Shown here in pieces: positions 813-37,450 of a DNA stretch of 64,000 nt. The stretch is taken from NCBI GenBank assembly GCA_020832495.1, contig JAFIEP010000039.1:1-64000 (forward strand), given 5' to 3'. Within the stretch, counting starts at the first letter, position 1. Each line of letters begins with the position of its first letter. The stretch comes from Acidimicrobiia bacterium (GTDB lineage Bacteria > Actinomycetota > Acidimicrobiia > Acidimicrobiales > Acidimicrobilacustridaceae). The notes beneath the pieces are model-generated. The model searched no databases and had not been told where the DNA came from. It saw only the letters and a list, made by a program, of their open reading frames with translations. Position numbers and translations under genes: made by a program.

Positions 813-964
813 GGCTGTTCTCCTGGCGGGACCGCCCAGGTGGCGGCCGAATCGGGGGCGATGACGGGAATCGAGATCGAATCGAGATCGAACGGCGCTC
901 GGCGGACGAGCGGGGGCCGGATCGACGCCCGCGGTGCGCGGGAGTCGACGTAGACCAGCGTCGG

Positions 965-970
965 ATCTTA
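965..970 (-). promoter_or_regulatory. possible -10 element upstream of rplY
   Basis: Read on the minus strand this is TAAGAT, about 150 bases upstream of the rplY start in the prs-rplY gap. No convincing -35 is visible. The leader also contains a tandem duplication of the 11-mer GAATCGAGATC at 868-889. This is a weak call. Confidence 0.25.
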
Positions 971-1027
971 CCGGGACGAGGGCGGCAGGGGCGAACCAGC
1001 CGACGCGCCACCGGTCTCGGCTCTGGC

Positions 1028-2008: not shown

Positions 2009-2133
2009 GGGCCCCTTCCCAGGCTCCGGTCGGCCGCCCATCGGCGTCCCCACGGCTTCGCCCAGCGGTGCACCCACCAACGCATCGGCCGACGCATCGG
2101 TCGGTGCGCCGGGTCGTTCACTCACGGGTTCGC

Positions 2134-5567: not shown

Positions 5568-5570
5568 CGC

Positions 5571-6566
5571 TCAACAGCCACGGATGTTCAGCCCCCACCA
5601 CTCGACCTCGCCGTCCACGGCATCGACCCGCACCGACAGCGGCTCGTCGATGGGCATCGGCCGCAACGACAGCAACGTCAGCGCATCGGCCGGCACCCGG
5701 GGTTCCACCCACACGTCGCCCGTCTCCCAGCCACCGTCGACGGTCTCGACCTCGACTGCCACCTCGACCATGCCGTCAGCGCCCGGAGCCCCAGCACGGA
5801 CCGAGACAGCGCCGCAGATCGTATCGGTGGGCCCGTACCCCGGGTCTGGATCCGCACTCTCGTAGAAGCGTGATGCACGACGCTCACCAACCTCCGGTGC
5901 AACGACCACTGGCTCACCTACGGGAACCATCGTCGCCCGAACGCGATCCGGTACGGCGACGTGGGGTTCGTCCTCGAACCCGGCCAGATACTGCTCCACC
6001 TCGAAATCGGACAGCCCCGCTCGGTCGATTGGTCCGCCACCTTCAGGCCGAGCGCTCCCGACCTCGATCCACTCCTGTCCGACCTCGGCCACCGTCCACC
6101 CGTTCAGCATGCGGACACAGAGCCCAGGCGCCACCCACGCAAGCGCCGACCCGGCTGCGTCGACGAGCACCATCCAACGATCCGTGCAGGTCGCAAAGAG
6201 CCCAGTCTTGGCCAACGGCAAGGACTGCTCCCCCCAACCACCGGCCACCCCGGCCCACAAGGTGTCATGAGGACCAGCCTGCGGTTCGCTCGGTTCGCCC
6301 TCGGCCCACCGCACCAAGTCTGCCACCGCTGCGGCATCCTCCACATGAGCCATCACGTCATCGCGCTCCCCCAGCACGACCGCAACATCCTCGCCGTGAA
6401 GGAGAAGAGCGGGCGTTCCCAACCGCGGCAGCACGCCATCATCCATCCCGTCGTGCTCGAGCCGGAGCGCCTCCTCGCCTGACGGCCCCACGCTCCGACA
6501 CCCGACCACGATCAGCGCCACGGCCACCACGCACACCGCCAGGCGACATGCGACATCACCTCTCAC
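5571..6566 (-). CDS. predicted lipoprotein, tandem paralogue A
   Basis: No family recognised. I chose the GTG at 6566 because it overlaps the stop of the upstream secreted protein as GTGA, the coupling style used across this window. The reading frame also stays open to an ATG at 6602. A hydrophobic segment ends in a lipobox-like IVVGC, so the product is probably an exported lipoprotein of about 331 residues. Shared landmarks with paralogue B are 'CTDRW', 'APGLCV', 'VPVGEPVVVAPEVGERRAS' and the near-identical C-terminus. It sits in an operon with the HExxH protein, which suggests a joint extracellular role (inference). Confidence 0.75.
   Translation of the reverse strand: MRGDVACRLAVCVVAVALIVVGCRSVGPSGEEALRLEHDGMDDGVLPRLGTPALLLHGEDVAVVLGERDDVMAHVEDAAAVADLVRWAEGEPSEPQAGPHDTLWAGVAGGWGEQSLPLAKTGLFATCTDRWMVLVDAAGSALAWVAPGLCVRMLNGWTVAEVGQEWIEVGSARPEGGGPIDRAGLSDFEVEQYLAGFEDEPHVAVPDRVRATMVPVGEPVVVAPEVGERRASRFYESADPDPGYGPTDTICGAVSVRAGAPGADGMVEVAVEVETVDGGWETGDVWVEPRVPADALTLLSLRPMPIDEPLSVRVDAVDGEVEWWGLNIRGC
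5590..5750. repeat. 161-bp direct repeat, copy 2
   Basis: Second copy of the segment at 4588-4748, encoding the C-terminus of paralogue A in the same frame. Confidence 0.9.
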
Positions 6567-9500
6567 GACGACGCCACCTCGAGCACGGCACTCGCTTCCC
6601 ACGAGGTCACTTCGCCATCGAGCACCTCGAGTCGCGCGGTTGCGGGCAGAACCCGGCTGTAGTTGTTGTGCAACGAACCGAGGTCGTCGATCTCAACCGT
6701 GGACCACGCCGGCAGCGTGTACTCCCCCACCACTGTCGTACTGTTCGGTCGATGCCCGTAGAACGTGATTCGAACGGTGACCGTCGCACCAGGTATCGCG
6801 CTCGGAGATCCGGTCGTGATGATCGGTCGTAGCGTGGCGTAGCCGCCGGAGAAGTAGTTGTCCCAGGTCTGGTTCTGGCCGCCGTAGACGTGGAGCCATG
6901 TGCTGCTCGGGAGTGACCCACTCGACGCTCCATCGGCGAACAGCCACACGAGGTCACTGCCCTCCCAGAGGTGGTTGATGCGGGCGGAGAAGGAGATCGG
7001 TTGGCCCGACGCGTGGGGATCGGGGTGGACAACGACGAGGCTGGCTGCACTACATCCGTCAACGACCGAAATGGTCAGCACCCCGGCTCCGGTGCGACGG
7101 TCGACAACCTCGCCAGACGCTGATGAGCAGATGTACGGGTGGCCTCCGATGCCGTAGCCCACCAGCGTTGCGCGCAGGGTGTCATCGCTGCTGAACAGGC
7201 TCACGGTCAGGTCACCGTCAACCCCGTCCGCTGGGTCGACGTCGACGACCCAGGCGCCTCCGGGTTCGATCTCCCCGCTTGCGCCGCCCTGAACGCCACT
7301 CTGCAACTCGAGGATCTCGCGCTCGTAGCCTGGATCTACTGGCTGGCGCGGACGAGACGACAGGTCACTCGGCGCCATCAAGCGCTGCATACCAAAGAGT
7401 CCAGACGGTCTCAGGGCAGGCGGCGCCAGCCTGGAATGCCATGCGTTCGGATCACTACTCGGAAGCGTCCACGAGTACCGAGCCGAGCCAGAGTTGCTGT
7501 GGTGCATCGTGTGCATCGCAACCCAGAGGTCGGCAACCAGCGACTCGAGGCCAGGGCCCTGGTCGGCAACGAGCGGCCGCAGGATGTCATCGAAGTAGTC
7601 GACCGACCCTGAGTGGTCGGCCACCGCCTGCCAGAACTCGTAGACGACGTCGATGTCATTGTCGTCGTTCAGCCGTTCGGCGAGGTACTGCCAGAAGATC
7701 CCTCCGGCGTACCAGCGTCCGGCACCCCACGGCCGATCCTGGTGAGGTCGGGATTCCGGTCCCCGTGCCGTGAGGGCACGGGCCGGATGTTGCCACAACG
7801 CCGCACCGATCCGCAGAGACTCCGGTGGCTTCGCCCACACCCCTTCATGCACGTGGGTCGGCGGCTCCGCCGCCGGCACGACGTGACTCATCACCTCGTT
7901 GAGGGGCGTACCGTCGATGGAGGCGTAGTAGGCCTCTGCGTACCGAGTGGTGGACTCGAGAAACCACTTGTACGTGTCGCCATCGGAGTCTTTGTTCGTT
8001 CCCATCAACTCGAACTGGAACAGATGAAACATCTCGTGGATGACCGTCGGACCCTCAGCACTTGGATGAAGCTTGATCCACGCTGGACCGCCCCTGGTCA
8101 AGGGGCCAAGGCGGTAGTAGGAGCAACAGGCTAGGCCTCTCGTGGCGATCGGCTCGATCCTCACCGGCAGCGGGGATGGAAGGTCAGACGGATCGCCGTA
8201 CCCCGCGTCCCTGAACGTCAGCATCGACGCCTCGATGACCATCAAGTACTCGTAGATCTGCTGGGGGTAGGTCGGGAACGCCACCGACGGCTTCGGGTCG
8301 ACACCCGTGAGGTCGTTCTCATCGAGGTCGAGCAACGGCGGGTCACCAGGCTCCGGGTCGTACTCGTAGAGTTCCTCGTCACCCAGGCTGAACGTGATGC
8401 TCACCGCGGGCAAACCGGGATCATCGAACTCGTGAACGATCTCGCATCGCCGGAAGGTGCTGTTCTGGGAGCGCACTTGCAGCGGGTCAAGGCACTCCGG
8501 ATCAGGCGTCCCGCTCGTTCCATCGGGTGGTTCGCCCCCACCACCGCCCGGCGCCTCATGACCATCCAGCGCGTAGTTCGGCTCCTCGATGAGATCCTCG
8601 ATTGCTATTTGTGTTGCCGGCTGCAGGTCGTCGAAGTCGTACGAGAACATCGCTGAGACCAGCGGCGTCGCACTGCTGGCGAAGTACGAATCGGTGCTGT
8701 CGCTCGCCCCTGCGGAACTCGGAACGTAACGAGCGTCGAGCTCCACCACGCCGAACGCAGCTTGGAGAAGCAGCAGCGCGTAGTCGTCCACCAACAACCG
8801 ACCCCGCTCACGGTCGAGCACGACGCGGTCAATTGGCGGCATGGCGTTGTCCACCACGACCTGGATTGTCGGACCGGCGACCACCTCGTTCTCGGCGTCT
8901 GTCACCACGAGCCCGAGCGCTATCGGGCCATCGTCGAGGCCCGTCGTGTCGAGCACAACCGCATGGGGCAATGCGGTGGTGGTTGCGTAGGGGTCGCCGT
9001 CGACGGTAACCGTCACCGATGTCGGCACGCTGCCATCGTGCACACCGACCACGAGTTCCTCCTCGCCGAAGAGGAGGTCTCCGTCGTCGATTCCATCGAT
9101 GGAGTACGGTGAGGTGGAGAACGACGTCGTCGTCGGCAACGAGGCGTTCGTGCTCTCGTCGAAGAGGTCGGCGAACAGTGGCTCCCAGCCCGGCTCATCG
9201 TCCGTTCGGGTGACCGCGTAGCTTCGGACCACGTACTCACGGTTCCACTCGAGCACGCCCGGGCCCACCGCTGCTTCAGCCCGGAGACCAGGCCACACCG
9301 GCGGAGTGGCATGAACACCAACCAGGGTTCCCGCCGTGTCCTCGATGACGAACAGGATTGCGCCGCGGCGAACCTCCATGGCGTCGGTCTCGTAGACAGC
9401 GGACAGGGTTGGCTGCAAGCTTCCGACAACCGTGCTCGGCGCAACCTCCGCTGGCGGCAGCGGTGCATCGACGGCGGCGCCGTCGGACCACCAGACCACC

Positions 9501-17682: not shown

Positions 17683-18729
17683 TCAGCCCCTGGCCGCCGC
17701 CCTACGGGGCGAGCGACTGGCCAGCCGGGCGACGAGCACCTCCATGACCAGCCGGTCGGGCCACGCTCGTGCCCCCCGCAGCTCGAGATCCGCAGTGGCC
17801 AGCAGGCCGATGCAGTCGGCCAGACGATCGTGGCCCATTCGGCGGGCACCCTCGAGGGCCTTGCGGGCCGGAAAGGTGGACCCCTTGAGCCCCAGGAGCT
17901 GGGCGGCGTCGCGTTCGTTGGCCACCGCCGCCCCTTCGAGGGCCATCATCCGGCTGTAGTGGCTGTGCAGCGTGGCCATGATCTGCAGCGGGTGACGCCC
18001 ACCGCCGTCGAGTAGCCGATCGAGCGTGGCCAACGCACCGGGCAGGTCGCCGCTGTCGATGGCGTCGGTCAGCTCCCACGGCGGCACGGCGCCGGCGCTG
18101 TGGAGGTACGGCCGCACGTCGGCCACTCCGAGGCGCGCCCCGGGACCGTGTGCCCCTTCAAGGGTGGCCAGCAGCCCCGCCAGGGCCGCAGCGTCGTCAC
18201 CGAGGTTCTCCACCACCAGGTCGGCCGCCGCCGCGTCGAGGTGCACCGAGGACTCGGCCAGGTGGCTGCGCACCCAGTCGGCCACCTTGCGACCCGGGGC
18301 GGCGTCGACGACCACGCCCCCGGCCGCCTCGACCGCCTTGGTCAGCGACGGCGGCACCCGGGCCGCCGCCGTCTGCCCGGCCGGGCGGTCCCAGACAAGC
18401 ACCAACCGGGTGGTGGGCAACGGGTCGCCCAGGTAGGCCACCAACCCGGCCACGTCGTCGGCCTTGGTGAAGCCACCCAGGCCACGGCCCACCACCACCC
18501 GCCGGTCGGTGAGGAAGGCTGGTGTCTGTGCGGCGTCCACCAACGGCGACAGATCCGGCGTGCCGGCGCCGTCGACCAGTCGCTCGGGGCCCAGTTCGTC
18601 GACGGCCATGGCGGCATCGGCGTCGGCCCGCACCGTCGTGATGACCTGGCGGGCAGCGTCGCCGGCCAGCACCGGATCGCCGGCCTTGACCAGCACCACC
18701 GGGGTGTCGGCCGTGACCTGACTGCTCAT
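17683..18729 (-). CDS. holA: DNA polymerase III delta subunit
   Basis: HolA is the clamp-loader subunit that opens the sliding clamp during replication. The 348-residue protein has the N-terminal 'VVLVKAGDPVLAGDAAR' opening and 'PAFLTDRRVVVGRG'. It also has the C-terminal collar region 'GALATLDRLLDGGGRHPLQIMATLHSHYSRM' in segments, and 'KGSTFPARKALEGAR'. The ATG overlaps the stop of the comEC-folP frame as ATGA. Linkage to comEA/comEC is standard across bacteria. Confidence 0.93.
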   Translation of the reverse strand: MSSQVTADTPVVLVKAGDPVLAGDAARQVITTVRADADAAMAVDELGPERLVDGAGTPDLSPLVDAAQTPAFLTDRRVVVGRGLGGFTKADDVAGLVAYLGDPLPTTRLVLVWDRPAGQTAAARVPPSLTKAVEAAGGVVVDAAPGRKVADWVRSHLAESSVHLDAAAADLVVENLGDDAAALAGLLATLEGAHGPGARLGVADVRPYLHSAGAVPPWELTDAIDSGDLPGALATLDRLLDGGGRHPLQIMATLHSHYSRMMALEGAAVANERDAAQLLGLKGSTFPARKALEGARRMGHDRLADCIGLLATADLELRGARAWPDRLVMEVLVARLASRSPRRAAARG

Positions 18730-21608
18730 CGGCGGGCCACCACAGCGGCCATCACGTCGGCCACCCGCCGGGCCGCCCGGCAGTCGTGGGCTCGCAGGAC
18801 CCGACACCCCAGGGCGATGCCCAGTGCATGGGCGGCCGACGTGCCGGCGGTGGCGGAATCGACGTCCACGTCGAGCAGGTGCCACAGGAATCGTTTGTTG
18901 GACGCCGACAGGAACACCGGGTACCCGAGCGACGCCAACTGATCGGACGCTCGCAGGAGTTCGAGGGACTGCGCCTCGGTCTTGCCGAGATCCAAACCGG
19001 CATCGACCATGATGCGCTCCGGCTCGATACCCGCTGCCCGGGCCCGGGCCGCTCGGTCGGCCAGCTGGTCACGCACGTCACGCACCACGTCGTCGTAGCG
19101 CGGGTCGGGGTCGGGCACCCGGGGGGCGAGGCGGATGTGGGTGGCCACCACCGAGGCTCCCGCCGCCGCACAGACTCCGAGGTACGCCGGGTCGGCGAAG
19201 CCACTGATGTCGTTGCCCACCACGGCGCCGGCCTCGAAGCACGCAGCCGCCACCGACGCTCGCCAGGTGTCGACCGACAGCGGGAGGTCGAAGCGGGCAC
19301 GCAGGGCCTCCACGGCGGGCACCACCCGCTCGAGTTCCTCGGCCTCGGTGACCTCCTCGCCGGGGCCGGCCTTCACCCCGCCGACGTCGAGGAAGTCGGC
19401 GCCGTCGGCCACCAGTTGGTCGGCCTTGGCCAGGAACGCGTCGAAGTCCCAGTAGGCCCCCCGGTCGTAGAACGAGTCGGGGGTGCGGTTCAAGATGCCC
19501 ATGACCACCGCACGGTGTGTGACGTCGAAGCGGTGATCGCCCAGAGCCAGCTCCATCGACGGTGACGCTACACGGGCGCTCTCCCCGATCCCCATCCCGG
19601 CCGGCTCCGTGAGCGGCGGAGGGCGGATCTCCACCTCCAGCCGCTCGGGCGCCGCGCTGACCACCACCTCGGTGGCCCCCACCCACAGGTGCAGCGGCGA
19701 CGCCAGCGCGGTGGGTGCGGTGCCGGGCCGGTGGTCGCCGTCCACCTCGACCACGAGGCGCCCGCCGCCCACCGAACCGCCGAACGGCGAGCCGTCGGGT
19801 GCGGCCGCAGTCACCGAGGTGTCGGGTCGCACGACCACCAGCTCCGGGAATCGGCTGCGCAACGCAGCCACCGCCGCGGTCACCCGCGACCCCCACGAGC
19901 GGGCGACCACCACCGGCGCCGCACGCACACCGAGGTCGCGCAAGGCATCGAGGGGAGCGTCGGGTGCCACACGCCCGTCGAGCACCAGCACCGTCACCTC
20001 GGTCGGTTCCTCGGGCACCAGCACCACCACACCCCGCGCCGGTTCGTGCTGGCCTGGCATCAATGGCGGCAGGGTGACGCCTGCATGGACGACCACCCCC
20101 GCTGCCAGCGCCCCGGCCACCGCCCCGGCGACCAGATTCCTCACCCGCGCCCGAGGACCGCCTCGACGACGGACCAACGCCCGGACGGCAGCCAACCCGC
20201 CGCCGAGGAGCGCCAGCGCTGCCACCTCGGGCGGGCCCAGGCTCCCGATCGGCGCTCGTGCCCCCCACGCCCCCACTGCTGCGATGGCCGACGACAGCAC
20301 GGTGGTGGGCACCTGCACCACGTCGACCACCGTCGTGAGCCCGACCACGTCGCCCAATCCCCCGAGTACGGCCCCGGCCAGCACCCCAGCCGTGAGCCCC
20401 CAGATCATCAGCCAGCCCGCCATCTGGCTGACGGCCACGTTGGCCGGGATGGCCACCAGCGGCATCTCGTCGAACAAGGTCACGAGCACCGGCGCCACAC
20501 CGGCCTGGGCGGTCACGGTCAGGGCGACCGGCTGGCGCAGCACGTCGGGGCCGGGCAGCCGCTCGGCCAGGGGCCGTGCCCACAGGGCGATGCCGGTGGT
20601 CGCTGCCACCGACAGCTGGAACGGGTAGGTCCACACCAGGAACGGGTCGACGAGCACCAAGATGGTGACCGCCGCGGCCAGCCGCCCGATGGTGGTGAAG
20701 CGGCGCCCTCCTCCCGAGGTGTCGACGGCCAGGGCGGCCATCACCGTGGCCCGCAGCACCGACGGTTCGAAGCGGGTAAGGAGGGCGAACCAGGCCAGCA
20801 CCGCAAGGGTGGCCACGGCCCGTGGCCGGAGGCGGAGCCGACGCAGAAGCGGGGCGAACACGGTCAACACGAAAGCGACGTTCTGCCCGGACACAGCCGT
20901 CAAGTGGCTGAGCCCGGCCACGCGCATCTGATGGTCGACGTCGGGTGGCAGGCTGCGGGTGTCGCCCACCACCAGCCCGGCCAGCAGCCCGCGCGCCGTG
21001 GGATCGAGGCGGGCGGAACCGTGGGCCAACGCCCGGTGGATGGCGTTGGCCACCCGCACCGGCGGCACCCCCGCCTCGTCGGTGCGGCGCACCTCTGCCA
21101 CCGACACGGTGCCCACCACGTGGCGGGATGCCTGCCAACGGTCGCCGTGACGGCGGGGCGTGGTGCGTCCGGTCAACTCGACCACCTCGCCGACCAGCAT
21201 GGGGCGCAGCACCCCTGCCGCCGAGCCCGAGGCCAACGCGTCCCACCGGCGCCCATCCATGCGCACCTCCACGCGCACCCCGCCCGCCACCGGCCGGGGG
21301 TCGCCCGACAGCACCGCCCGGCCTTCCACAGTTCCGGGCAGCTCGTCGTCGAGGCCGGCCCACGCCGCCTGCCCGGACCCCGCCGCGAACAAGAAGGCAG
21401 CGCCGGCCAGCGTCGACACGACCACAAGTTGGTGGACAGGCGCCGGCTGGCCGAGCGGTCCCCCACCTCGCCCCCGGGCGGCGGCCCGCCACGACCGGGC
21501 CCATCCGACGCGCACCACCACGAGGCCCCCCAGCGGCAGGCACCACGCCCACCGCCCGACGGCGAGCGACGATGCCGCCCCGGCCCAGGTGGCGGCGGCC
21601 AGCACCAT
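18726..21608 (-). CDS. comEC: ComEC/Rec2 channel fused in frame to a FolP2-type dihydropteroate synthase domain
   Basis: One uninterrupted frame encodes both parts. The N-terminal 680 residues are ComEC, the inner-membrane DNA-uptake channel, with an OB-like region, 'GLLAGLVVGDTRSLP', 'GLSHLTAVSGQNVAFVL' and many helices. The usual C-terminal metallo-beta-lactamase domain is not recognisable. From residue about 685 (internal ATG at 19556) comes a 276-residue pterin-binding barrel: 'GILNRTPDSFYDRG', 'DFLDVGGVKAGPG', 'LSVDTWRA', 'NDISGF' and 'ASNKRFLW'. These variants match mycobacterial FolP2 rather than classical DHPS ('NVTPDSFSDGG', 'GGESTRPGA'). FolP2 has been reported to lack DHPS activity. 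ATG 21608 fits a membrane N-terminus; GTG 21701 is an alternative start. Confidence 0.85.
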   Translation of the reverse strand: MVLAAATWAGAASSLAVGRWAWCLPLGGLVVVRVGWARSWRAAARGRGGGPLGQPAPVHQLVVVSTLAGAAFLFAAGSGQAAWAGLDDELPGTVEGRAVLSGDPRPVAGGVRVEVRMDGRRWDALASGSAAGVLRPMLVGEVVELTGRTTPRRHGDRWQASRHVVGTVSVAEVRRTDEAGVPPVRVANAIHRALAHGSARLDPTARGLLAGLVVGDTRSLPPDVDHQMRVAGLSHLTAVSGQNVAFVLTVFAPLLRRLRLRPRAVATLAVLAWFALLTRFEPSVLRATVMAALAVDTSGGGRRFTTIGRLAAAVTILVLVDPFLVWTYPFQLSVAATTGIALWARPLAERLPGPDVLRQPVALTVTAQAGVAPVLVTLFDEMPLVAIPANVAVSQMAGWLMIWGLTAGVLAGAVLGGLGDVVGLTTVVDVVQVPTTVLSSAIAAVGAWGARAPIGSLGPPEVAALALLGGGLAAVRALVRRRGGPRARVRNLVAGAVAGALAAGVVVHAGVTLPPLMPGQHEPARGVVVLVPEEPTEVTVLVLDGRVAPDAPLDALRDLGVRAAPVVVARSWGSRVTAAVAALRSRFPELVVVRPDTSVTAAAPDGSPFGGSVGGGRLVVEVDGDHRPGTAPTALASPLHLWVGATEVVVSAAPERLEVEIRPPPLTEPAGMGIGESARVASPSMELALGDHRFDVTHRAVVMGILNRTPDSFYDRGAYWDFDAFLAKADQLVADGADFLDVGGVKAGPGEEVTEAEELERVVPAVEALRARFDLPLSVDTWRASVAAACFEAGAVVGNDISGFADPAYLGVCAAAGASVVATHIRLAPRVPDPDPRYDDVVRDVRDQLADRAARARAAGIEPERIMVDAGLDLGKTEAQSLELLRASDQLASLGYPVFLSASNKRFLWHLLDVDVDSATAGTSAAHALGIALGCRVLRAHDCRAARRVADVMAAVVARR

Positions 21609-21714
21609 CGGTCCGACCGAACGCCAGGGCGTGACCGACGCCGAGCTGGACCCCGACGTCGCCGCCGACCCCGACGTCGACCTCAGTGGCGGATCCGACA
21701 CGTCGAGGTCCGCG

Positions 21715-22659
21715 TCAGAGCACGACGTGATCGCGTAGGGCGGCCAGCTTGGCGTCGCCGATGCCACGCACGGCGAGCAGATCCTCAACGGTGGCGAACG
21801 GGCCGTGCGCGCTCCGGTGGTCGACGATGGCCTGAGCGGTGGCCGGCCCCACCCCCGGGAGCCGTTCCAACTCGGCGACATCGGCCACGTTGACCGCCAC
21901 CGGCGCTCCAGTCCCCCCGCCGCCGGCTCCTCCTGAGCTGGTCCCCGCAGGACCTGACCCCGAACTGCCACCGTGGGGTGAGAGCGAGGGCGCAACCTCG
22001 GCGGGGAGCTCGACCTGTCCCAGGGTCGGGACGTAGAGCCGGGCACCGTCGGGGACCGGGGCGGCCAGGTTGATGCGATCCAGGTCGGCGTCGGGGGTTG
22101 CCCCTCCGGCGGCCTCCACCAGTTCGGCCACGCGAGCACCTGGGTCCAACACGTGCAGGCCGGGGCGATGCACGGCCCCGGCCACGTGGGCCACGACAGG
22201 GTCATCGGCGGGGCCGCCAGTCAGGTCGTCGGGCGAACCCGTCGCCCCGCCCGTCGACGAGGTCAAGTGACGTGACGACGGCCCATCGCCGGGTGTCTCC
22301 CCGGTGCCGGCGGCCTGCTCGCCGGCACCACCGACCATCGGGGTGCTCGCCCCAGCCATCGGCAGCGTCGGATCAGGGGGCGGCGGGGGTGCACCGCGTA
22401 GCAGCAGGACTCCGACGACCACCAGCGCAACCGAGATGCCGACCCCGACGAGGCTGACGCCGGGCCGAGCGAAGGCACCGCCGACCCAGGGCTCGAGGAC
22501 GGCGATCAGGCCACGGGGCGGATCGGAGAACGCCGCCTGCAGCCGACGGTCCTCGGCGTCGGGGTCGGGGTCGGGGTCGGTACCGAGATCGGGCTCGGGT
22601 CCGAAGTCCGTGTCGAGGTCGACATCAGGGTCCGCACCGACTGGCGATCGAACAGCCAT
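21715..22659 (-). CDS. comEA: ComEA-like DNA-binding competence protein
   Basis: ComEA binds incoming DNA at the membrane surface and passes it to ComEC. The product (about 314 residues) has an acidic Asp/Pro-rich cytoplasmic start, a transmembrane helix near 67-88 and a Gly/Pro/Ser linker. A SLBB domain near 154-211 ('VAHVAGAVHRPGLHVL') follows, then a C-terminal double helix-hairpin-helix near 254-314 ('LERLPGVGPATAQAIVDHR', 'LLAVRGIGDAKLAAL'). The ATG at 22659 is favoured over 22671 because AGGAG lies four bases upstream. The comEC part follows directly. Confidence 0.92.
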   Translation of the reverse strand: MAVRSPVGADPDVDLDTDFGPEPDLGTDPDPDPDAEDRRLQAAFSDPPRGLIAVLEPWVGGAFARPGVSLVGVGISVALVVVGVLLLRGAPPPPPDPTLPMAGASTPMVGGAGEQAAGTGETPGDGPSSRHLTSSTGGATGSPDDLTGGPADDPVVAHVAGAVHRPGLHVLDPGARVAELVEAAGGATPDADLDRINLAAPVPDGARLYVPTLGQVELPAEVAPSLSPHGGSSGSGPAGTSSGGAGGGGTGAPVAVNVADVAELERLPGVGPATAQAIVDHRSAHGPFATVEDLLAVRGIGDAKLAALRDHVVL

Positions 22660-25820: not shown

Positions 25821-27539
25821 CTACGCGCAGGGCGACGGATAGTCCACGAAGCGCTCATCTTCGGGCACTTCGTCGTAGATGTAGACGGCGCCGTCCTCGT
25901 CGAACGCCGCCGGCGGGCCCTCGGGCCACTCCCCCGGCAGGTAGCGCCGACCACCGTCGACGTAGGCGTACAGACCCGGCCCCACGGAGGCGGCGGCCGT
26001 GTCGTCGGGCCCAACCTCGGTGGGGTTCCACCACAGCTCGGTCATGTCGTCGACGCCGTGGTAGTCCACCTCGTCCCATCGGCCCTTCTCCGGCGTCCCC
26101 CACGCCAACGTCGGGTTGCTGAGAGCCCGGCGGGTGGCGTTGGCCTGGAAGAGCGTCTGGCGGAAGGTCTCGTGGGTGAGGTTGGGTCCGGCCCCCTGCA
26201 GGGTTGCGAAGAACACCGCCGGCAGCGGGTAGACCAGCGGCGTGGTGTCGGGTGCGGGTGGCGGCGCGCACGTGTACCACTCGAGCAGTCGGCGGGCGTT
26301 CTCGAGTTCGGGGGTGACCCGCACCGTGCCCGAGGTGATGCCGAAGGCGTTGGCCCACTGCTGTTGGTCGTAGGTGCGGGCGTACACGGCGGTGTCCATC
26401 AGTGCCGAGTTACCGACGAACCACTCGGGGAAGTAGTCCTGGTCGGTGGCCGCCCGGGTGAACCCGGCGGGCGACAGCGGGTCACCGGACTGCAGCACCG
26501 TGGTCACCCCGGCGTCCTTCAGGCGTGCGATCACCCCGGGTGCCTCCGACGAGACGTCGAGGGGGTTCTGGAACGAGGCGGTGACGGCCAACTCGACCCC
26601 GTAGGGTTCCAGCGCGTCCTCGAGGCCCTGCACCACCGCACCGGAACCGGGGCCACTGTCGAGGTAGATGAGGCCGAAGACCCGCTCCTGGTCGTGCATC
26701 GCCTCGTCACCGGCATGGATGGCCGGCTCGCCCGCCAGGCGCTTGCCGATGTACTCCGCCGTGTGTTCCCGAGCCTGCCAAGCGGCCATGCCGATGGTGA
26801 GTAGATACGGGTCGGCAGCCTCGTAGTACGACGGTGGCTCCGACGGACCGAGCAGCCCGAGGTTCAGGATGTCGCGGGCGGCCAGTTCGTCGGCGAAGGC
26901 CCCACCGATGATCGGTCCACCCCACACGGCGAACGGCTCGAGCGTCTCGGCGATCTGCACGGCGTCGGCGCGTGCGGCCACGTCGTCGAGGGCGCCACCG
27001 GTGCCTTCGTAGACGATCAGCTCCACCTCCCGGCCGTAGGTCTCGTAGTACTCCTGGAACAGCGGCAGGTAGGCCTGGTGGGTGGCGGTCACCTCCTCGG
27101 GCGTGTCGTCGGTGGCCGCACCGGAGATGGCGTCGAGGATCGGATCCTCGGTGGCCTGGTAGAGCACCACACGGATGGTGTCCTCGGTGACCCCGGGCGC
27201 GGTGGCCCCCCCGTTGTCACCGTCGAAGGGGGCGAAGCACTCCTGAGCGAAGAACGACGGGACTGCCATCAGCCCGGTGTCGGTGTCACAGGTCTCGGGC
27301 CAGTCGATGTCGAGGCCCTCGCGCTCGGCCACCGAGAACGGGATCACCCCTTCGGGGAGCACCACCTCGCCGCCCCAGTCGGCGTCGTAGCGATACCCGC
27401 CGTTGGTCGTCTCGCCGCCGACCACCTCGTCGGGACCGTCGTCGTCGTCACCCCCGGTGAGGGTCACCACCGCCACCAACGCCAGGACGGCGACGATGGC
27501 CACCAACGGGCCGTAGCGCTTCACCATGGTCGAATCCAT
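25821..27539 (-). CDS. ABC transporter substrate-binding protein (Leu/Ile/Val-binding family)
   Basis: A 572-residue periplasmic-binding-fold type I protein, the ligand receptor of the adjacent importer. A short N-terminus 'MVKRYGPLVAIVAVLALVAVV' precedes an acidic spacer. No lipobox cysteine is seen, so it is probably held by an N-terminal anchor or released. The core contains 'DTIRVVLYQATEDPILDAISG', 'AVWGGPIIGG', 'VFGLIYLDSGPGSGAVVQGLEDAL' and 'TTVLQSGDPLSPAGF'. It is longer than the usual 380-400 residues, with an extended C-terminal part. The start lies four bases after the MFS-LivFG stop. Ligand unknown; family members bind branched-chain amino acids, amides or aromatic acids. Confidence 0.88.
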   Translation of the reverse strand: MDSTMVKRYGPLVAIVAVLALVAVVTLTGGDDDDGPDEVVGGETTNGGYRYDADWGGEVVLPEGVIPFSVAEREGLDIDWPETCDTDTGLMAVPSFFAQECFAPFDGDNGGATAPGVTEDTIRVVLYQATEDPILDAISGAATDDTPEEVTATHQAYLPLFQEYYETYGREVELIVYEGTGGALDDVAARADAVQIAETLEPFAVWGGPIIGGAFADELAARDILNLGLLGPSEPPSYYEAADPYLLTIGMAAWQAREHTAEYIGKRLAGEPAIHAGDEAMHDQERVFGLIYLDSGPGSGAVVQGLEDALEPYGVELAVTASFQNPLDVSSEAPGVIARLKDAGVTTVLQSGDPLSPAGFTRAATDQDYFPEWFVGNSALMDTAVYARTYDQQQWANAFGITSGTVRVTPELENARRLLEWYTCAPPPAPDTTPLVYPLPAVFFATLQGAGPNLTHETFRQTLFQANATRRALSNPTLAWGTPEKGRWDEVDYHGVDDMTELWWNPTEVGPDDTAAASVGPGLYAYVDGGRRYLPGEWPEGPPAAFDEDGAVYIYDEVPEDERFVDYPSPCA

Positions 27540-27543
27540 CTGG

Positions 27544-30500
27544 TCATTCCCCCTCGTTCGGCCGGGCGACGCCCAGCAACTCGTCAGCCGATCTCGTGCC
27601 GCTGCGAGCGATGACGTCGTCGGTGACCCCCAGGTAGGAGGCCACCACACGCTCGTGGTGTAGCACGTGGTCGGCAGAACCTTCGGTCACCACTGCACCC
27701 TGGTCCAACGCCACCAGCCGATCGGAGATGGACGTGACCAGTGGCATGTCGTGTTCGATGACGAGCACGCTCGCCTCGAGCTCGTCGCGGAGGCGCTCGA
27801 TGACGGGGCCGAGCGCCTCGGTCTCCCGCTGGGCGATGCCGCTCGAGGGCTCGTCGAGCAGCACCACGTTCGGGCGGTGGGCCACGATGCAGGCCAGGTC
27901 CACGATGCGCCGGGACCCGGTGGACAGCTCGCGGACGAACTTGGTGCGGAAGGCCTCGAGGCCGAGCAGGGCAATGAGCTCGTCGGTGCGTTCCTGCACG
28001 GCCGCCTCCGAGTCGTACACCGCCGGCAGATGCAGGGCGGCCAGCAACGGATCCCGCACGGCGGTCCAGCGGTCGAGCGCCACCTTGATGGTCTCCTCCA
28101 CGGTCAGTGTCGGGAAGAGACGAGCGTCCTGGAAGGAGCGTCCGAGCCCCGCGGCGGCCCGCGCCGTCGCCGAACGGTCGGTGACATCCACCCCGCCGAG
28201 GAGCAGCCGTCCGCCGTCGAGGGGCTGGAACCCGCTGATGAGATCGAACAGTGTTGTCTTGCCGGCACCGTTGGGACCGATGATGCCGACGATCTCGCCC
28301 GGCGCCACCCGTAGGTGGACGTCGTCGACGGCCACGATGCCACCGAACCGCCGGCTGAGCCCCACCAACTCCAGCGCCGGGGTCACCCCACCGTCGGCGG
28401 CCGAGGCGCCCTCGACCTCCGCCGACGCCGGAGCACCACGGGCAGGCGATCGGCCCGCACCGCCACCTGCGCCGTTCCCTGCGTCGCCTCCTGCGTCGCC
28501 TCCTGCGCCGTTGCCGGTCGTCGCCGCCCGGGCGGCCATGCCCGACTCCGCACCCTCGAGGAACACCGACCGCAACACGTCGGGCCGTTCCAGCAGTTCG
28601 GCGGTGGGCCCGTGGAACCGGATCTCGCCCTTTTCGAGGAAGTAGGCCTCCTCGGCCACGGTGAGCGCCACGTTCACCGACTGCTCCACCAAGATGATGG
28701 TTGTGCCCGCCTCGCTCATGGCTCGCACGATGGGCAGCAACTGCTCGACCACCACCGGGGCCAGCCCCAGCGACAGCTCGTCGATCATCAACAGCCGTGG
28801 CTTCTGCATGAAGGCCATGCCCAATGCCAACATCTGCTGTTGACCACCGGAGAGGTTGGCCGCCGGTTCGTCGCGCCGCTCGTCGAGCACGGGGAACTTC
28901 TCGTAGACCGACGCCGCGCCCTCGGCCAGCGCCTCGCGATCGCCTCGGGACAGCCACCCGGCGATGCGCAGGTTCTCGGCCACGGTGAGCGACGGGAAGA
29001 CCCCCTGCCCTCCGGGCACCTGCAGTACCCCACGGGCGGCGATCTCGTTGGGCGGGGCGTGGGTCATGTCGCGCCCGTCGAAGATGACCGCACCCTTGTC
29101 GGCCTCCACTGCGCCACTGATGGCCCGCAGCAGCGTCGACTTGCCGGCCCCGTTGGTGCCGAGCAGGGCCACGATCTCGCCCTCGCCCACCTCGAAGTCC
29201 ACCCCGAACAGCACCTGGACGTCGCCGTAGGCCACGTCCAGTTCGCGCACCAACAGCAGCTTCGAGCGACCCTGACGTCGTTCGGCGGCCGCCTCGGAGA
29301 GCGCGGCAGAGGTGGTCCACACGTTCGTGATGTCGCGCTGGATGAACTGCCCGGCCGAAGCAATGGCCAGCCCGCCGAAGAGGAACATCGGCACCATGGC
29401 CAGCATGCCCACCCGTAGGCCGTAGGCCTCGCCGATGAGACCGATGACGGGGATCAGCGCCAGGCCGGGCAACACGAACACCGAGCCCATGGAGAACCCC
29501 ATGGAGCGGGCGCGGGCGGGGATGGCCAGGCTCAGCGCAGCGAAAATGCCCGGGAGCAGGAAGGCCAAGCTTCCGCTGATCACGACGTTGGCCACCAGCG
29601 CCACGGCCAGGTTGGGAGCGAAAGCGAAAACGATGGAGCCTGCACTGACCACGAAGATGACGTACGACAAGAACTTGAACAGCGACGCCGGGTCCTTGGC
29701 GAACATCCGCATGCCCAACTTGGCCCCGACGATGAGGCCCACGATCTGGAAGGGTTCGGTGGCCGACCCCACGAAGCCACGCTGGGCGGCGTCGAGGCCG
29801 AACACCTCCTCGTAGTAGAAGCTGGCGAACAGCAGGAAGCCGGCAACTGCCGGCGCCAGGAAGGGCAACGTGCGGTAGATGCGACGCAGGCTGTCGATCT
29901 TCCAGCACATCCGCCAGGCCTCGGCGAACGACGGGGCGTCCTCCTCGGTGGCGATGGCCTCCTCGCTGGCCCCCATGGCCCGCCGTTCGCGAGCGCCCCG
30001 CACCGGCTCCCGAAGCCGCAGGCCGAGGAGCACCAACAGCACGGTGGGGATGGCGAAGACGAGGAACGGCACCCGCCACGAGAACCAGGTGGCCAGCAAC
30101 CCGGCGGTGATGGGGCCGATGAACTGGCCCACCGAGTTGGCCGCCCGGTGGAACGAGTAGATCCGGGGCCGCAGCTCCATTGGGTAGTAGTCGGCGATGA
30201 GCGAGTTGTGGGTGGGGTCGGTGAACGCCTTGCCGATCTGCGAGCCGGCCAGCGCGATGCCCAGGATCCACGCCGTGGCCGCCGTGCCGATGCCGACGGA
30301 GAAGAAAGCCAGCACCATCCCGCCGAGCAACGCCAGGCGCACCCGGTTCGTGCGGTCCGCCCACGTGGCGATGGGGACGGTGAGCCCCAGCGCAGCGGCG
30401 AAGGCCAGGAACACGACGATGGTGATACCGCTCAGGCCGATGCCGAAGTAGTCGGCGATGTCGGGGGCCAGGATGCCGAAGGCGGAACGATTGAGCTCGT

Positions 30501-30645
30501 CGACGACGTTCAGGCCGAACAAGATGAGCAGCGCGTAGAGCGGGCCGTCGCCGGTGAGGCCGTCCATCCACCGCACCGGGTGGCGGACGGCATACCGGAA
30601 GCGTTCGTGCCACGATCCGGGCTGGGCGGCCACGCCGGGGATCAC
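27544..30645 (-). CDS. MFS transporter fused to LivF-type and LivG-type ABC ATPases
   Basis: A single 1033-residue polypeptide. Residues 35-440 are a 12-helix MFS transporter with the loop motif 'ATWADRTNRVRLALLGG' and 'GKAFTDPTHNSLIADYYP'. Residues 462-695 are a LivF-like ATPase (Walker A GTNGAGKST at 496, LSGGQQQ at 598, 'LLMIDELSLGLAP'). A Gly/Ala linker runs 700-750. Residues 757-1030 are a LivG-like ATPase (Walker A GPNGAGKTT at 790, 'LSTGSRR' signature, 'VVLLDEPSSGIA'). GTG start overlaps the permease stop as GTGA. No cut site or internal stop is seen. The MFS part may assist substrate entry or export; its role is inferred only from fusion. Confidence 0.9.
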   Translation of the reverse strand: MIPGVAAQPGSWHERFRYAVRHPVRWMDGLTGDGPLYALLILFGLNVVDELNRSAFGILAPDIADYFGIGLSGITIVVFLAFAAALGLTVPIATWADRTNRVRLALLGGMVLAFFSVGIGTAATAWILGIALAGSQIGKAFTDPTHNSLIADYYPMELRPRIYSFHRAANSVGQFIGPITAGLLATWFSWRVPFLVFAIPTVLLVLLGLRLREPVRGARERRAMGASEEAIATEEDAPSFAEAWRMCWKIDSLRRIYRTLPFLAPAVAGFLLFASFYYEEVFGLDAAQRGFVGSATEPFQIVGLIVGAKLGMRMFAKDPASLFKFLSYVIFVVSAGSIVFAFAPNLAVALVANVVISGSLAFLLPGIFAALSLAIPARARSMGFSMGSVFVLPGLALIPVIGLIGEAYGLRVGMLAMVPMFLFGGLAIASAGQFIQRDITNVWTTSAALSEAAAERRQGRSKLLLVRELDVAYGDVQVLFGVDFEVGEGEIVALLGTNGAGKSTLLRAISGAVEADKGAVIFDGRDMTHAPPNEIAARGVLQVPGGQGVFPSLTVAENLRIAGWLSRGDREALAEGAASVYEKFPVLDERRDEPAANLSGGQQQMLALGMAFMQKPRLLMIDELSLGLAPVVVEQLLPIVRAMSEAGTTIILVEQSVNVALTVAEEAYFLEKGEIRFHGPTAELLERPDVLRSVFLEGAESGMAARAATTGNGAGGDAGGDAGNGAGGGAGRSPARGAPASAEVEGASAADGGVTPALELVGLSRRFGGIVAVDDVHLRVAPGEIVGIIGPNGAGKTTLFDLISGFQPLDGGRLLLGGVDVTDRSATARAAAGLGRSFQDARLFPTLTVEETIKVALDRWTAVRDPLLAALHLPAVYDSEAAVQERTDELIALLGLEAFRTKFVRELSTGSRRIVDLACIVAHRPNVVLLDEPSSGIAQRETEALGPVIERLRDELEASVLVIEHDMPLVTSISDRLVALDQGAVVTEGSADHVLHHERVVASYLGVTDDVIARSGTRSADELLGVARPNEGE

Positions 30646-32876
30646 GAGCCACCCACCTCAGCCGGTTCCTCCGGGCCGCCCGGCGAGTCGATGCTGGCCG
30701 TGCCCTCGTCGAGCGCGGCCGCCGCCGCTTCGAACTCGCCTTCGACCATGGCCTCGAGTTCGCGCTGGTCGGCCAGCAGGCTCGGGGAGACGATGCGGTG
30801 TCGCCGGGCCACCGAGCGCAACCACAGGTCGCGCCCGCGATACACGGCGCCGCCGAGGCCGCCCGGCACCAGCAGCAACACGATGAGCACACCGACGGAG
30901 GTGGCCAGCAGTTGGAACTCGGTGGGGAAGAACCAACCGCCGCCTTGGAGGTAGAGCGCGCCGAGCGTGGCACCGAGGATCGAACCAAGCCCTCCGACCA
31001 CCGCAGCGGTGAAGACCAACAGGTTCTGCTCGGCGGCCACCAGGTTCAGGGTGAAGAACTGCTGGTGGTGGACCAGCAGGCCGCCGGCGAAGGCGGCCAC
31101 GAAGCCCGACACGGCAAAGGCGGTCAGCTTGGCTCGCACCACGCTCACGCCGTAGGACTGCGCCCCCCGCTCGTTCTCCCGCATAGCGATCAGGACCCGA
31201 CCGGTGCGCGACCGGCGAATGCCCTGCACCACGAAGGCCATGAGGGCGAACCCGCCCAGGCACACGTAGTAGATCCGCGTCGGCGAGTCGAGGCTCCACT
31301 GACCGAGCAACGGTGGCCGAGCGATACGCTCGTTCACCCTGGGCACCCAGCCAAAGAACTGGGCGTTGAGGAAGTACGACGACGTCGCCAACCCGAAGGC
31401 CAGCGTCACCACCCCCAGGTAGAGGCCACGCAGGCGCAGCGCCGGGAGCCCGACGAGCAGGGCGACCAGGGCGCCGGCAACACCGGCCACCAGCAACGCC
31501 AGGGTGAGATCCAGTCCCCACTGTGACGTCGCCACCGCCGCCACTGCTGCCCCGATGCCCACGAAGCCCATCTGTCCCAGCGACACCTGGCCCGCCCACC
31601 CGGTGAGCACCACCAGCGACATGGCGATGATGGCGTAGATGATCACCGCCGAGGCCTTCAGCGAGTCGGCCGCTCCGAGCACGTGGGGCAGCACGAGCAG
31701 CCCCACGGTCACCAACCCGACGAGGGCGACCCGCACGATCTGCACCTCGGGCACGGAACGCACCTCGGGGGGCACCGGGCGCACGTCGTCGGTGGTCTGC
31801 CACGACGACGAGGCATCGGTCTCCGCACGCGTGGTTCCGCTGCGTTGCACGAGCAGCGCCACCAGGATGACCAAGCCGATGATCGGTGTCACCAGCACCG
31901 CCCGCTCGGAGGGGATGGTGGCGAAACCCAGGTTGATCTGGTCGTTCCAGATGACCCCCTGTTCCAGTAGGCCCAGCGCCACCGCCGAGGTGGCGATGGC
32001 CGGCAGGTCGGTGAGCTTCCCCAGGGTCAGCGCGGCGAGGGCCAGCAACAGCACGTTCAGGCTGAACACCGGGCCGAAGGGCAACCCCACGATGCCGGCC
32101 CGCAGCGCCAAGCCAACGAAGGACAACACGGCGGCCAGGGCCCACACGTAGGTGTTGATGCGCTTCACCGGGATGCCGAGCAGGCTGGCCCGCTGGGCAC
32201 GTTCGGCACTGGCCCGGATGGCGATACCCACCGTGGTGACCCGCAGGAACACCGCAACGCCGACGAGCACCGCCGGGGACACGATCCAGGCGACCACGTG
32301 GTCCGCCCGGAAGATGAGCGGATCGATGGTGAAGCTCAGGTCCCACGGGAACGAGATGCGATCACCCCGCACCTCCACCGAGCGGACGTCGCGACCGGTG
32401 AGCCAGGCCAGCCAGTCGGGAAGGTACAGGGTGATCACCACGAGCAGCTGGGCCAGCCCGATGGTGGCCACCGTCAGGATGAGGCGCGGCGCGGCGAAGA
32501 ACCGGCGGATGATGGCCAGCTCGACCAGTGCGCCCAACACCAGCGCCGCCGCCAGGCCCAACACCAAGCCGGCAACGTAGTGCCAGGCGAAGCTCTGGAT
32601 GAGGATCACCGACAGCATGGCCGGGGCCACCCCCAGGTCACCCTGGGCGAAGTTGAGGATCCGGTTCGCCCGGTAGACGAGCGCCATGCCCAAAGCCACC
32701 AGCGCGCCGAGCAGACCCACGGTGAGCCCCTGGATCCACATGCCGAGCGGCAGGGGGAAGAGCAGCAGTTGGACGACGACCACCACCGCTGCCGGTGCGC
32801 AGATGGTGCCGAGACGCTGGACGCGAGGCGGCAGCGTGCTCGCCCGGCCTGCCAGCCCCCCATCGGTGGTGCTCAC
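30642..32876 (-). CDS. fused LivH-LivM branched-chain amino-acid type ABC permease
   Basis: A 744-residue membrane protein joining two permeases normally encoded separately. Residues about 30-360 are LivH-like ('GALVALGMALVYRANRILNFAQGDLG', in segments, and 'IRASAERAQRASLLGIPVKRIN'). Residues about 395-690 are LivM-like ('LTGWAGQVSLGQMGFVGIGA', 'LRLRGLYLGVVTLAFG', 'IAMRENERGAQSYGV'). A charged C-terminal tail follows. It is the first gene of a three-gene operon with the MFS-LivFG protein and the binding protein. Together these provide a complete importer in three chains. Confidence 0.93.
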   Translation of the reverse strand: MSTTDGGLAGRASTLPPRVQRLGTICAPAAVVVVVQLLLFPLPLGMWIQGLTVGLLGALVALGMALVYRANRILNFAQGDLGVAPAMLSVILIQSFAWHYVAGLVLGLAAALVLGALVELAIIRRFFAAPRLILTVATIGLAQLLVVITLYLPDWLAWLTGRDVRSVEVRGDRISFPWDLSFTIDPLIFRADHVVAWIVSPAVLVGVAVFLRVTTVGIAIRASAERAQRASLLGIPVKRINTYVWALAAVLSFVGLALRAGIVGLPFGPVFSLNVLLLALAALTLGKLTDLPAIATSAVALGLLEQGVIWNDQINLGFATIPSERAVLVTPIIGLVILVALLVQRSGTTRAETDASSSWQTTDDVRPVPPEVRSVPEVQIVRVALVGLVTVGLLVLPHVLGAADSLKASAVIIYAIIAMSLVVLTGWAGQVSLGQMGFVGIGAAVAAVATSQWGLDLTLALLVAGVAGALVALLVGLPALRLRGLYLGVVTLAFGLATSSYFLNAQFFGWVPRVNERIARPPLLGQWSLDSPTRIYYVCLGGFALMAFVVQGIRRSRTGRVLIAMRENERGAQSYGVSVVRAKLTAFAVSGFVAAFAGGLLVHHQQFFTLNLVAAEQNLLVFTAAVVGGLGSILGATLGALYLQGGGWFFPTEFQLLATSVGVLIVLLLVPGGLGGAVYRGRDLWLRSVARRHRIVSPSLLADQRELEAMVEGEFEAAAAALDEGTASIDSPGGPEEPAEVGGS

Positions 32877-35656: not shown

Positions 35657-37321
35657 TCAGCCGGCGTTGACCGGCTCGAGGGTGCCGTCGAGGTAGCGCT
35701 GGCGGCACAGGCTGCGCTGCAGCTTGCCCGACGAGGTCTTGGGGAGCGTGCCCGCCGGAACGAGCACCACGTCGTGCGGCGGGTGACCGCAGGCGTCGCG
35801 CACCCGGTCGTGCACCTCGCGCTGCAGCACGTCGTTCGACTCGCCCTTGATCTCGGCCACCACGGCGAACGCCTCGGCACCTCGCCGGCCTTCGACGCCG
35901 AAGGCGATGACGTTGCCCGGCCGGACGCCTTCCACCGCAGCGGCAGCGCGCTCGACGTCCTCGGGGAAGATGTTGCGACCACCCACGATGATCACATCCT
36001 TGATGCGGCCACACAGCACCAGCTCGGCGCCCAGCGTGTAGGCCAGGTCGCCGGTGCGGAGCCAGCCGTCGCGGAACATCGCCTCGGTGGCCTCGGCGTT
36101 GCGGTAGTACCCGGGGGTCACCGACGTGCCCCTCAGCTCCAACTCGCCCACCTCGCGGTCGGCCAGTTCGTGGCCGGTGGCCGGGTCGACCACCCGCATC
36201 TCGAGGCCGGCCATGGGCCGCCCCAGCAGGGCGAACTCGCGGGTGCGCTCCCCGCCGACGGGGGCAGGAGCGGCGTAGCGCTCGTTCTCGAGCACGCCGC
36301 GATCGACCGGATCGGTGCGCAGTCCGGCCATGGGATCGGGGAAGGTGCCGGCGATGGCCACCTCGGCCATGCCGAACGCCGGGAAGATGGCCCCCGGGCG
36401 CAGGCCGTGGCGGGCGCCGGCGTCGATGAGCTCCCGCACGCTGGTCGGATCGATGGGCTCGGCGCCGTTCAGGGCGACCCGCAGGTGCGACAGGTCCAGC
36501 GTCTCCTTGCTGCGACGCAGGGAGCGGGCGGCCAGGGCCCAGGCGAAGTTCGGACCAGCGGTGACGGTGCCGGCGTGCTCGGAGATCCACTCCATCCACC
36601 GCGAGGGTCGACCGGTGAAGTCCTGCGGCGCCCCCAGCACCATGCGGGTGCCCGAGATCATGGGCAGCCCCAGCAGACCGACGAGGCCCATGTCGTGGTA
36701 CAGCGGCAACCAGGACACGAAGCAGTCGTTGTCGAGGTCGAGCTTGCCGCGCTCGGCGATGGCGTCGAGGTTGGCCAGGATCGTGTGGTGCGGGAGCATG
36801 ACCCCCTTCGGCTCGCTGGTGGAGCCGGAGGTGAACTGCAGGATGGCCAGCGAGTTCGGGTCCTGGGCCGGCATGGACCAGGCGGCGCCACCGAGGCGGG
36901 CGCCTTCGGTGGCCAGGGCATCCAGTTCGATGCGGGCCGGATCGCCCTCTTCTGGCTCGACGAAGGCCGAGAGCTGCGGATCGATGACCAGCAGGCGCAC
37001 ATCGGCGCGGGCGATGCGCTCGCGGGTCTGGGCCACGAACTCCTCGATGGAGGCCAAGCGCATGGGCAGCGGCAGGGCCACCACGGTGGCGCCGGCCAGC
37101 CAGATGGCCTGGATGGTGGTCACCAGTTCGCGGGTGGTCGGGCCCAGCAGGGCCACGTGGTCGCCGGGGCGGACGCCTTCGGCTGCCAGCGCAGCGGCCA
37201 CGCCGCGGGCTTCGTCGTGCAACTGGGCCCAGGGCAAGGTCACCTGGGCGTCACCGCTGACGAACGTGATGGAGCTGGCGTGCTCGGCGGCGGCTTGGAT
37301 GCGTTCGGTGAGAGTGTCCAT
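35657..37321 (-). CDS. acyl-activating enzyme (fatty acyl-AMP ligase/acyl-CoA synthetase type)
   Basis: A 554-residue member of the ANL superfamily, which adenylates carboxylic acids. Motifs: P-loop 'LQFTSGSTSEPKGVML', 'PLYHDMGLVG', 'FGMAEVAIAG', 'GWLRTGDLAY', hinge 'GRIKDVIIVGGRNIFPEDVE' and the C-terminal 'LPKTSSGKLQR' lysine. 'SWLPLYHDMGLVG' and 'GRNIFPEDVE' are typical of fatty acyl-AMP ligases (FadD21/FadD32-like). Whether it carries the FAAL insertion that blocks CoA use cannot be decided here. ATG at 37321 matches the alignment; an upstream in-frame start at 37342 exists. Convergent with the P450 gene. Confidence 0.9.
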   Translation of the reverse strand: MDTLTERIQAAAEHASSITFVSGDAQVTLPWAQLHDEARGVAAALAAEGVRPGDHVALLGPTTRELVTTIQAIWLAGATVVALPLPMRLASIEEFVAQTRERIARADVRLLVIDPQLSAFVEPEEGDPARIELDALATEGARLGGAAWSMPAQDPNSLAILQFTSGSTSEPKGVMLPHHTILANLDAIAERGKLDLDNDCFVSWLPLYHDMGLVGLLGLPMISGTRMVLGAPQDFTGRPSRWMEWISEHAGTVTAGPNFAWALAARSLRRSKETLDLSHLRVALNGAEPIDPTSVRELIDAGARHGLRPGAIFPAFGMAEVAIAGTFPDPMAGLRTDPVDRGVLENERYAAPAPVGGERTREFALLGRPMAGLEMRVVDPATGHELADREVGELELRGTSVTPGYYRNAEATEAMFRDGWLRTGDLAYTLGAELVLCGRIKDVIIVGGRNIFPEDVERAAAAVEGVRPGNVIAFGVEGRRGAEAFAVVAEIKGESNDVLQREVHDRVRDACGHPPHDVVLVPAGTLPKTSSGKLQRSLCRQRYLDGTLEPVNAG

Positions 37322-37450
37322 TGCACACTCTGACCTACCCACTCAGCGTGAGGTTACGTCTGTTGTTCGACCTCATGGCCCCCCATCACGGGACAGACCC
37401 TGATCGTGCCAGCGCTCGATGGCACCGTGGGGCTCGGGCGCCGACGGTCG

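Follow-up and report, generated by a model that had tools for sequence, protein, structure and literature searches.

Importers of the Liv/HAAT type (LivFGHMJ; UrtABCDE), which belong to the ATP-binding cassette (ABC) transporters, are made up of a binding protein, two BPD_transp_2 permeases and two LivF/LivG-type ATPases encoded in one cluster. Transporters that run on ATP (primary) and those that run on a gradient (secondary) are treated as separate machines. A 64,000-nucleotide stretch of DNA from an Acidimicrobiia bacterium (contig JAFIEP010000039.1, positions 1 to 64,000; the window) contains an operon of three genes on the minus strand (25821-32876) with this same set of importer parts. 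It differs from the described importers in that LivH is fused to LivM and LivF to LivG, and in that a carrier of the major facilitator superfamily (MFS) is placed before LivF in the same chain. The ATPases are in the order F-G, whereas in the ordinary clusters seen here G is followed by F, and the LivG signature, LSTGSRR, departs from the usual form. Taken singly, the parts are all of established types; no description of an MFS carrier fused to LivF was found in the open-licence papers searched. The MFS-LivF fusion is real, old, widespread and stably inherited.

The operon and its fusion gene

The first gene of the operon (30642-32876, minus strand, as are all three) encodes a fused LivH-LivM permease of 744 residues with a GTG start and two BPD_transp_2 stretches (Pfam, E 3e-50). 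Its TGA stop and the GTG start of the second gene (27544-30645) share four bases, GTGA. The second gene encodes the MFS-LivF-LivG fusion protein, a frame of 1033 residues with zero internal stops, and the same architecture was found in relatives. By Pfam, residues 43-384 match MFS_1 (E 5e-31, 332/347 profile positions), and two further stretches match ABC_tran (E 1e-58). The Spinster-like MFS domain covers about residues 36-445 (29311-30540) and is followed by a linker at about residues 446-462 (29260-29310). The LivF-type ATPase domain occupies residues 463-700 (28546-29259), with its best NCBIfam LivF/UrtE-type match at 465-684, and the LivG-type domain residues 757-1010 (27616-28377), with its best LivG/UrtD-type match at 757-1006. 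The translated sequence has GTNGAGKST and GPNGAGKTT as its Walker A motifs and LLMIDE and VVLLDE as its Walker B motifs. The substrate-binding protein (25821-27539, 572 residues) starts four bases after the stop of the fusion, just outside the region covered by the original prediction. It matches Peripla_BP_6 (PF13458; E 1.5e-8, 35.2 bits vs a cut-off of 31.7); its N-terminus is hydrophobic and no lipobox cysteine was seen there. Thus, the coordinates and the Pfam and NCBIfam domains agree with what had been predicted from the letters: one frame with MFS, LivF and LivG parts and intact Walker motifs, a LivH-LivM fusion upstream and a binding protein four bases downstream.

With two BPD_transp_2 domains, two Walker-bearing LivF/LivG-type ATPases and a Peripla_BP-group protein in the cluster, the operon is assigned to the Liv/HAAT ABC importers. 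For the branched-chain amino acid transporter LivFG proper, both NCBIfam equivalog cut-offs were missed, that of LivF (269/441 bits) and that of LivG (289/362 bits). Among the urea transporter models UrtE passes (306 vs a cut-off of 286), UrtD just fails (301 vs 304), and UrtC and UrtB are far under their cut-offs (57 vs 296 and 50 vs 250 bits). Assignment to the urea transporter UrtABCDE was rejected, as the four cut-offs were not passed together. The predicted LivF domain matches the solved nucleotide-binding domain (NBD) 1ji0 at 44% identity, and Foldseek, queried with the MFS-LivF model, gave ATPases in the 50 matches listed. The ABC signature of LivF in the window copy is canonical (LSGGQQQ), and that of LivG is a clade-wide variant: LSTG[STL]RR is found in nearly all clade members, whether or not the MFS is present, and LivF retains LSGG[EQ]QQ, which makes the pair of ATP sites unequal.

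Recurrence of the fusion in other genomes

Forty genomes related to that of the window encode the same domain order in one frame, at 45-73% identity along almost the full chain; the single-contig assemblies G026 and G030 are among them. In a sample of the class, 79 of 296 genomes contain this MFS domain at E <= 1e-30. Most of the matches listed there (91/104) sit in frames of at least 696 residues, an open frame alone being no proof of fusion. Across the phylum, 20 of 397 sampled genomes have the domain (E <= 1e-25), and seven of these do not belong to the class. Embleya (Streptomycetaceae) has MFS-LivF and LivHM-LivG chains encoded on a large plasmid.

To place the domain in its context, 80 surrounding stretches of relatives were annotated by means of queries taken from the window itself. 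Of the 83 MFS domains in the tree, 74 share one frame with LivF as a fusion, six are standalone and three lie at a contig end. These last three (L168, L183 and L193) look standalone and terminate where their contigs do, and cannot be counted. None of the 83 domains examined in context is fused to LivG. At the annotated fused loci LivHM adjoins, or LivM is cut by the contig end. The standalone genes are a minority (L200, L203, L194, L234, L201 and L221). The physical, one-to-one joining of a primary and a secondary transporter, as proposed for the window, is therefore conserved in 74 of 83 cases. A stop or frameshift at the MFS-LivF junction did not appear, and relatives show the same frame; relatives with an unrelated separate MFS did not appear either, L200, L203, L194 and L234 being nested in the fused family.

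The window's genome is a draft assembly of 147 contigs, as would suit a misassembly or a chance read-through that merged two genes. The same fusion is present across many independent genomes, some of them single-contig, and the dN/dS values given below are low. As relatives carry the same fusion, an artefact is already refuted, and its probability is negligible.

Two long frames were considered as further fusions and rejected. The 1099-residue MFS frame C125 in the window's genome is an unrelated carrier without an ATPase, and the 1018-residue frame of L203 consists of a standalone carrier extended by non-coding sequence. In genome G037 the system is strongly expanded, with at least nine MFS-LivF fusions (L154, L157, L158, L159, L161, L166, L173 and L175 among its loci) along with several MFS-free Liv systems.

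Chain architectures and history

Among the rows of the ATPase tree with an MFS, 60, including the window, are arranged as LivHM and MFS-LivF-LivG, seven as MFS-LivF and LivHM-LivG, and four as MFS-LivF with a separate LivG. The MFS stays joined to LivF in all three arrangements of the remaining chains. Rows without an MFS are LivF-LivG chains (10) or a single LivHMFG chain (11), the latter of about 1240-1400 residues (L225, L228, L230, L231, L232 and L234-L238). Merging of Liv genes into fewer chains is thus a general trait of the group, to which the MFS has been added. The compression of the importer into few chains that had been noticed in the window is real, but it is not special to the MFS-bearing copies, since it proceeds down to one LivHMFG chain.

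In a tree of LivF and LivG together, the fused-chain systems lie on one side of a branch with support 97, opposite the ordinary separate LivF and LivG genes. At least nine changes are needed to account for the presence of the MFS on this tree. MFS-free relatives, both LivF-LivG and one-chain LivHMFG, nest inside the clade, which argues for repeated loss of the MFS. A single gain followed by repeated losses is the simplest reading of these sequences, with an MFS that would be useful yet dispensable; a mixture of gains and losses may also have produced the pattern. The tree was rooted on a hand-picked outgroup, most of its loci were collected through their MFS, and support is weak for several inner branches. 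The MFS tree has the same main groups as the LivFG tree. Standalone L200 and L234 group together inside the fused set, and L194 and L203 likewise.

At L234 (genome G027) the standalone MFS (962-2374, minus strand) lies about 3 kb from a one-chain LivHMFG importer (5283-9095, plus strand). At L194 (12-3409, minus strand) the standalone MFS is followed, toward the contig end, by a binding-protein-like frame, a stretch unrecognised by Pfam. ABC genes are not in view at L194, where the contig ends soon after and the ABC part could lie beyond.

The MFS carrier

The MFS_1 profile match and a motif A between transmembrane helices (TM) 2 and 3 place the N-terminal domain in the superfamily. The nearest solved structure is HnSpns, 6e8j (E 8e-10 with the single sequence, 4e-37 with a 35-sequence profile), followed by DgoT and SPNS1/2, so that Spns (Spinster) proteins, which transport lipids and organic anions, are the closest solved relatives. 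Nearly all of the 82 sequences (80-82) have the motif A residues D97, R98 and R101 and their partner D152. On alignment, D97, R101 and D152 of the window copy correspond to HnSpns D87, R91 and D142. In Spns, motif A and the equivalent of D152 serve alternating access, and Glu129 in TM4 of HnSpns is the proton switch (PMC9440201). The Glu129 switch is not kept: the window copy has K139, and the aligned sequences have Lys or Arg in 48/82 and Glu in 4/82. The TM1 Asp-Arg pair and the TM4 Arg (HnSpns Asp41, Arg42 and Arg122) are incomplete in the window copy, which has N52, R53 and L132. D52 and R132 are retained by most other fused relatives, and the window's nearest relatives mostly lack one or both. 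An acidic residue is present at TM1 position 49 in 66/80 sequences. Standalone MFS copies also keep motif A and D152, except L201 (T, K and R at 97, 98 and 101). Co-variation between Asp49 in TM1 and Lys/Arg139 in TM4 was considered (48/18 vs 0/14 by rows); it is not claimed, as it amounts to only two or three independent changes in the tree.

Ratios of nonsynonymous to synonymous substitution (dN/dS) were compared for the MFS part and the ATPase part. The values were 0.04 vs 0.05 for L142-L143, 0.17 vs 0.23 for the window and L142, and 0.17 vs 0.21 for the window and L153; they are rough, as dS is high in these pairs. By this measure the MFS is under purifying selection. Judged by its sequence, the domain is a maintained carrier of a working type, yet it departs from the textbook Spns proton antiporter. 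A role as H+ antiporter appears less likely for the window copy in particular, since Glu129 is replaced and the TM1 Asp and TM4 Arg are gone.

The MFS-LivF joint

Linker lengths were counted from the end of one domain match to the next match. In 73 of the 74 fused proteins 12-27 residues separate the MFS from LivF, and in the other (L220) 64 do; the LivF-LivG linker spans 17-91 residues. Residues 1-712 were modelled with AlphaFold2 from a thin alignment with three MFS-bearing sequences. The MFS part is helical throughout, and the helix count of 12 is not firm owing to the low confidence of its N-terminal half. The linker is modelled as an extension of the last MFS helix: one helix runs over residues 417-457, the first LivF strand begins at 462, and the predicted local distance difference test (pLDDT) score of this block is 72-78. 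The model suggests that the joint is stiff. On inspection of the sequence no obvious internal start that would give an MFS-free LivFG was seen in the linker.

Gene surroundings

A conserved neighbour of the operon, and no more than a possible associate of it, is a fatty-acyl-AMP/CoA ligase (35657-37342, minus strand). It carries an AMP-binding domain, and its best subfamily match, long-chain-fatty-acid--CoA ligase, is below its cut-off. A homologue is found near the MFS in 14 loci, including L168, at a contig end, and L200, with a standalone MFS. Other recurrent neighbours, mainly in the window's clade, are PAC2 (12 loci), APH kinase (11), F420 LLM oxidoreductase (11), leuS (8) and P450 (6). 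A binding-protein homologue adjoins most fused loci of this clade.

Elsewhere in the window, two domains share one open frame (18726-22205, minus strand): a ComEC-type Competence domain at residues 411-653 and, at 902-1140, the complete Pterin_bind domain of a dihydropteroate synthase. Shortly ahead of Pterin_bind an in-frame ATG could also start a separate folP. Homologous frames are present at L147 and L150.

Discussion

The arrangement that we favour, tentatively and at somewhat less than even confidence, is a one-to-one hybrid in which the importer's LivF subunit bears a carrier whose substrate would be the importer's own lipophilic anion or one related to it. The LivH-LivM chain and the MFS-bearing LivF-LivG chain would form an importer of the ordinary kind, which the binding protein supplies. 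Since LivF-LivG and the MFS are one chain in the importer, each complex would hold one MFS carrier, kept at a fixed distance from LivF by the short, probably helical joint. The importer may take up a lipophilic or anionic carboxylate-like compound using ATP, and the MFS may handle the same compound, its product or a counter-anion, offering a second path (efflux or exchange) within the complex. Uptake and release would thereby be produced and located together. The constant partner LivF with LivHM adjoining, the short linker, the parallel histories, the kept gating motif, the low dN/dS and the recurring neighbours point to this hybrid as a possible, still doubtful, solution. Weak hints of a lipophilic carboxylate-like substrate come from the kinship to Spns and from three of the neighbours (acyl ligase, P450 and F420 oxidoreductase).

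Several observations weigh against this hybrid. The neighbours are on the opposite strand or in separate units, and their recurrence is partly the inherited synteny of close relatives, leuS being in the same block; for this reason the hint as to substrate is a weak one. The structure model of the binding protein (pLDDT 36) is uninformative on the ligand. Mean pLDDT of the MFS-LivF model is 69, with the C-terminal MFS half and LivF good and the N-terminal MFS half poor, and the helical joint depends on the thin alignment already described. The parallel between the MFS and LivFG trees is a correlation of pairwise distances (r = 0.75) with no null model behind the figure. A few standalone carriers exist, and several apparent losses of the MFS left LivFG in place, so that the importer would work without it.

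The MFS might instead be regulatory, sensing an internal or external ligand and gating the LivF-LivG ATPase through a stiff joint while carrying no net substrate. The shortness of the joint would suit such a sensor, as would the ability of the clade to dispense with the MFS and the loss of the Spns switch residues, which is most pronounced in the window's subclade (N52, L132, K139). However, motif A and D152 are near-invariant, as in a moving carrier, and are so in the standalone copies too, save L201; the acidic TM1 position 49 also persists. On balance a purely regulatory MFS is unlikely. Of the two roles offered in the original prediction, passage of substrate from the importer to an antiporter and sensing by the MFS, neither gained support from the observations made here. 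A comparably low probability is given to the view that fusion merely fixes the dosage and location of two transporters of the same pathway, with no functional contact between them. The general compression of genes in this group, seen in HM, FG, HM-G and HMFG chains, and the persistence of rare split copies (L200 and L234) are in keeping with this view, but it does not predict the strict LivF partner or the tight MFS-LivF linker beside a loose LivF-LivG one.

Closer coupling between the two halves can also be imagined. In one form, a true primary-secondary hybrid, the LivF-LivG ATPase cycle and alternating access of the MFS would be linked mechanically through the TM12-LivF helix, and a single ATP-driven complex would import one compound by way of LivHM and gate or drive a second through the MFS; we regard this as quite unlikely. 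In another, ATP hydrolysis by LivF-LivG would drive or bias the MFS, a primary-secondary hybrid analogous to ArsA-ArsB. The joint is covalent and short, and with the Spns proton switch replaced the carrier may need another energy source. Against this, the NBDs already serve LivHM, the present data hold no sign of force transfer, and no MFS is known to touch an ABC ATPase through a coupling helix. Such energy coupling seems improbable.

In a family that has long kept both transporters in a single chain, with LivF as constant partner and little variation in linker length, one can ask directly whether a primary and a secondary transport cycle can be coupled. For annotation pipelines it means that a gene labelled MFS transporter or ABC ATPase may be half of something else. 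Should the two halves turn out to be independent, the fusion would still be a clear case of joined transporters of the same pathway, and a pointer to the substrate class of many uncharacterised Liv systems in uncultured Actinomycetota.

Among known carriers, the Spns proteins (HnSpns 6e8j, SPNS2) are the best solved relatives; the charge-relay positions of motif A are kept, and the TM1 Asp-Arg and TM4 Arg are retained in most relatives of the window MFS. The window family differs in the replacement of Glu129, mostly by Lys or Arg, in an extra acidic TM1 position (Asp49-Glu50) and in the fusion to an ATPase, and the window copy itself is also without the TM1 Asp and the TM4 Arg. Among joined systems, fusions of the LplT-Aas type resemble the present one in that an MFS lipid carrier is joined to a cytoplasmic partner, but that partner is an acyltransferase/ligase and not an ABC ATPase. 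In ArsA-ArsB a carrier is associated with a separate ATPase, as the carrier of the fusion is with LivF-LivG; the protein families are other ones, the two are not fused likewise, and the ATPase is without a second membrane partner, whereas LivF-LivG also has LivHM to serve.

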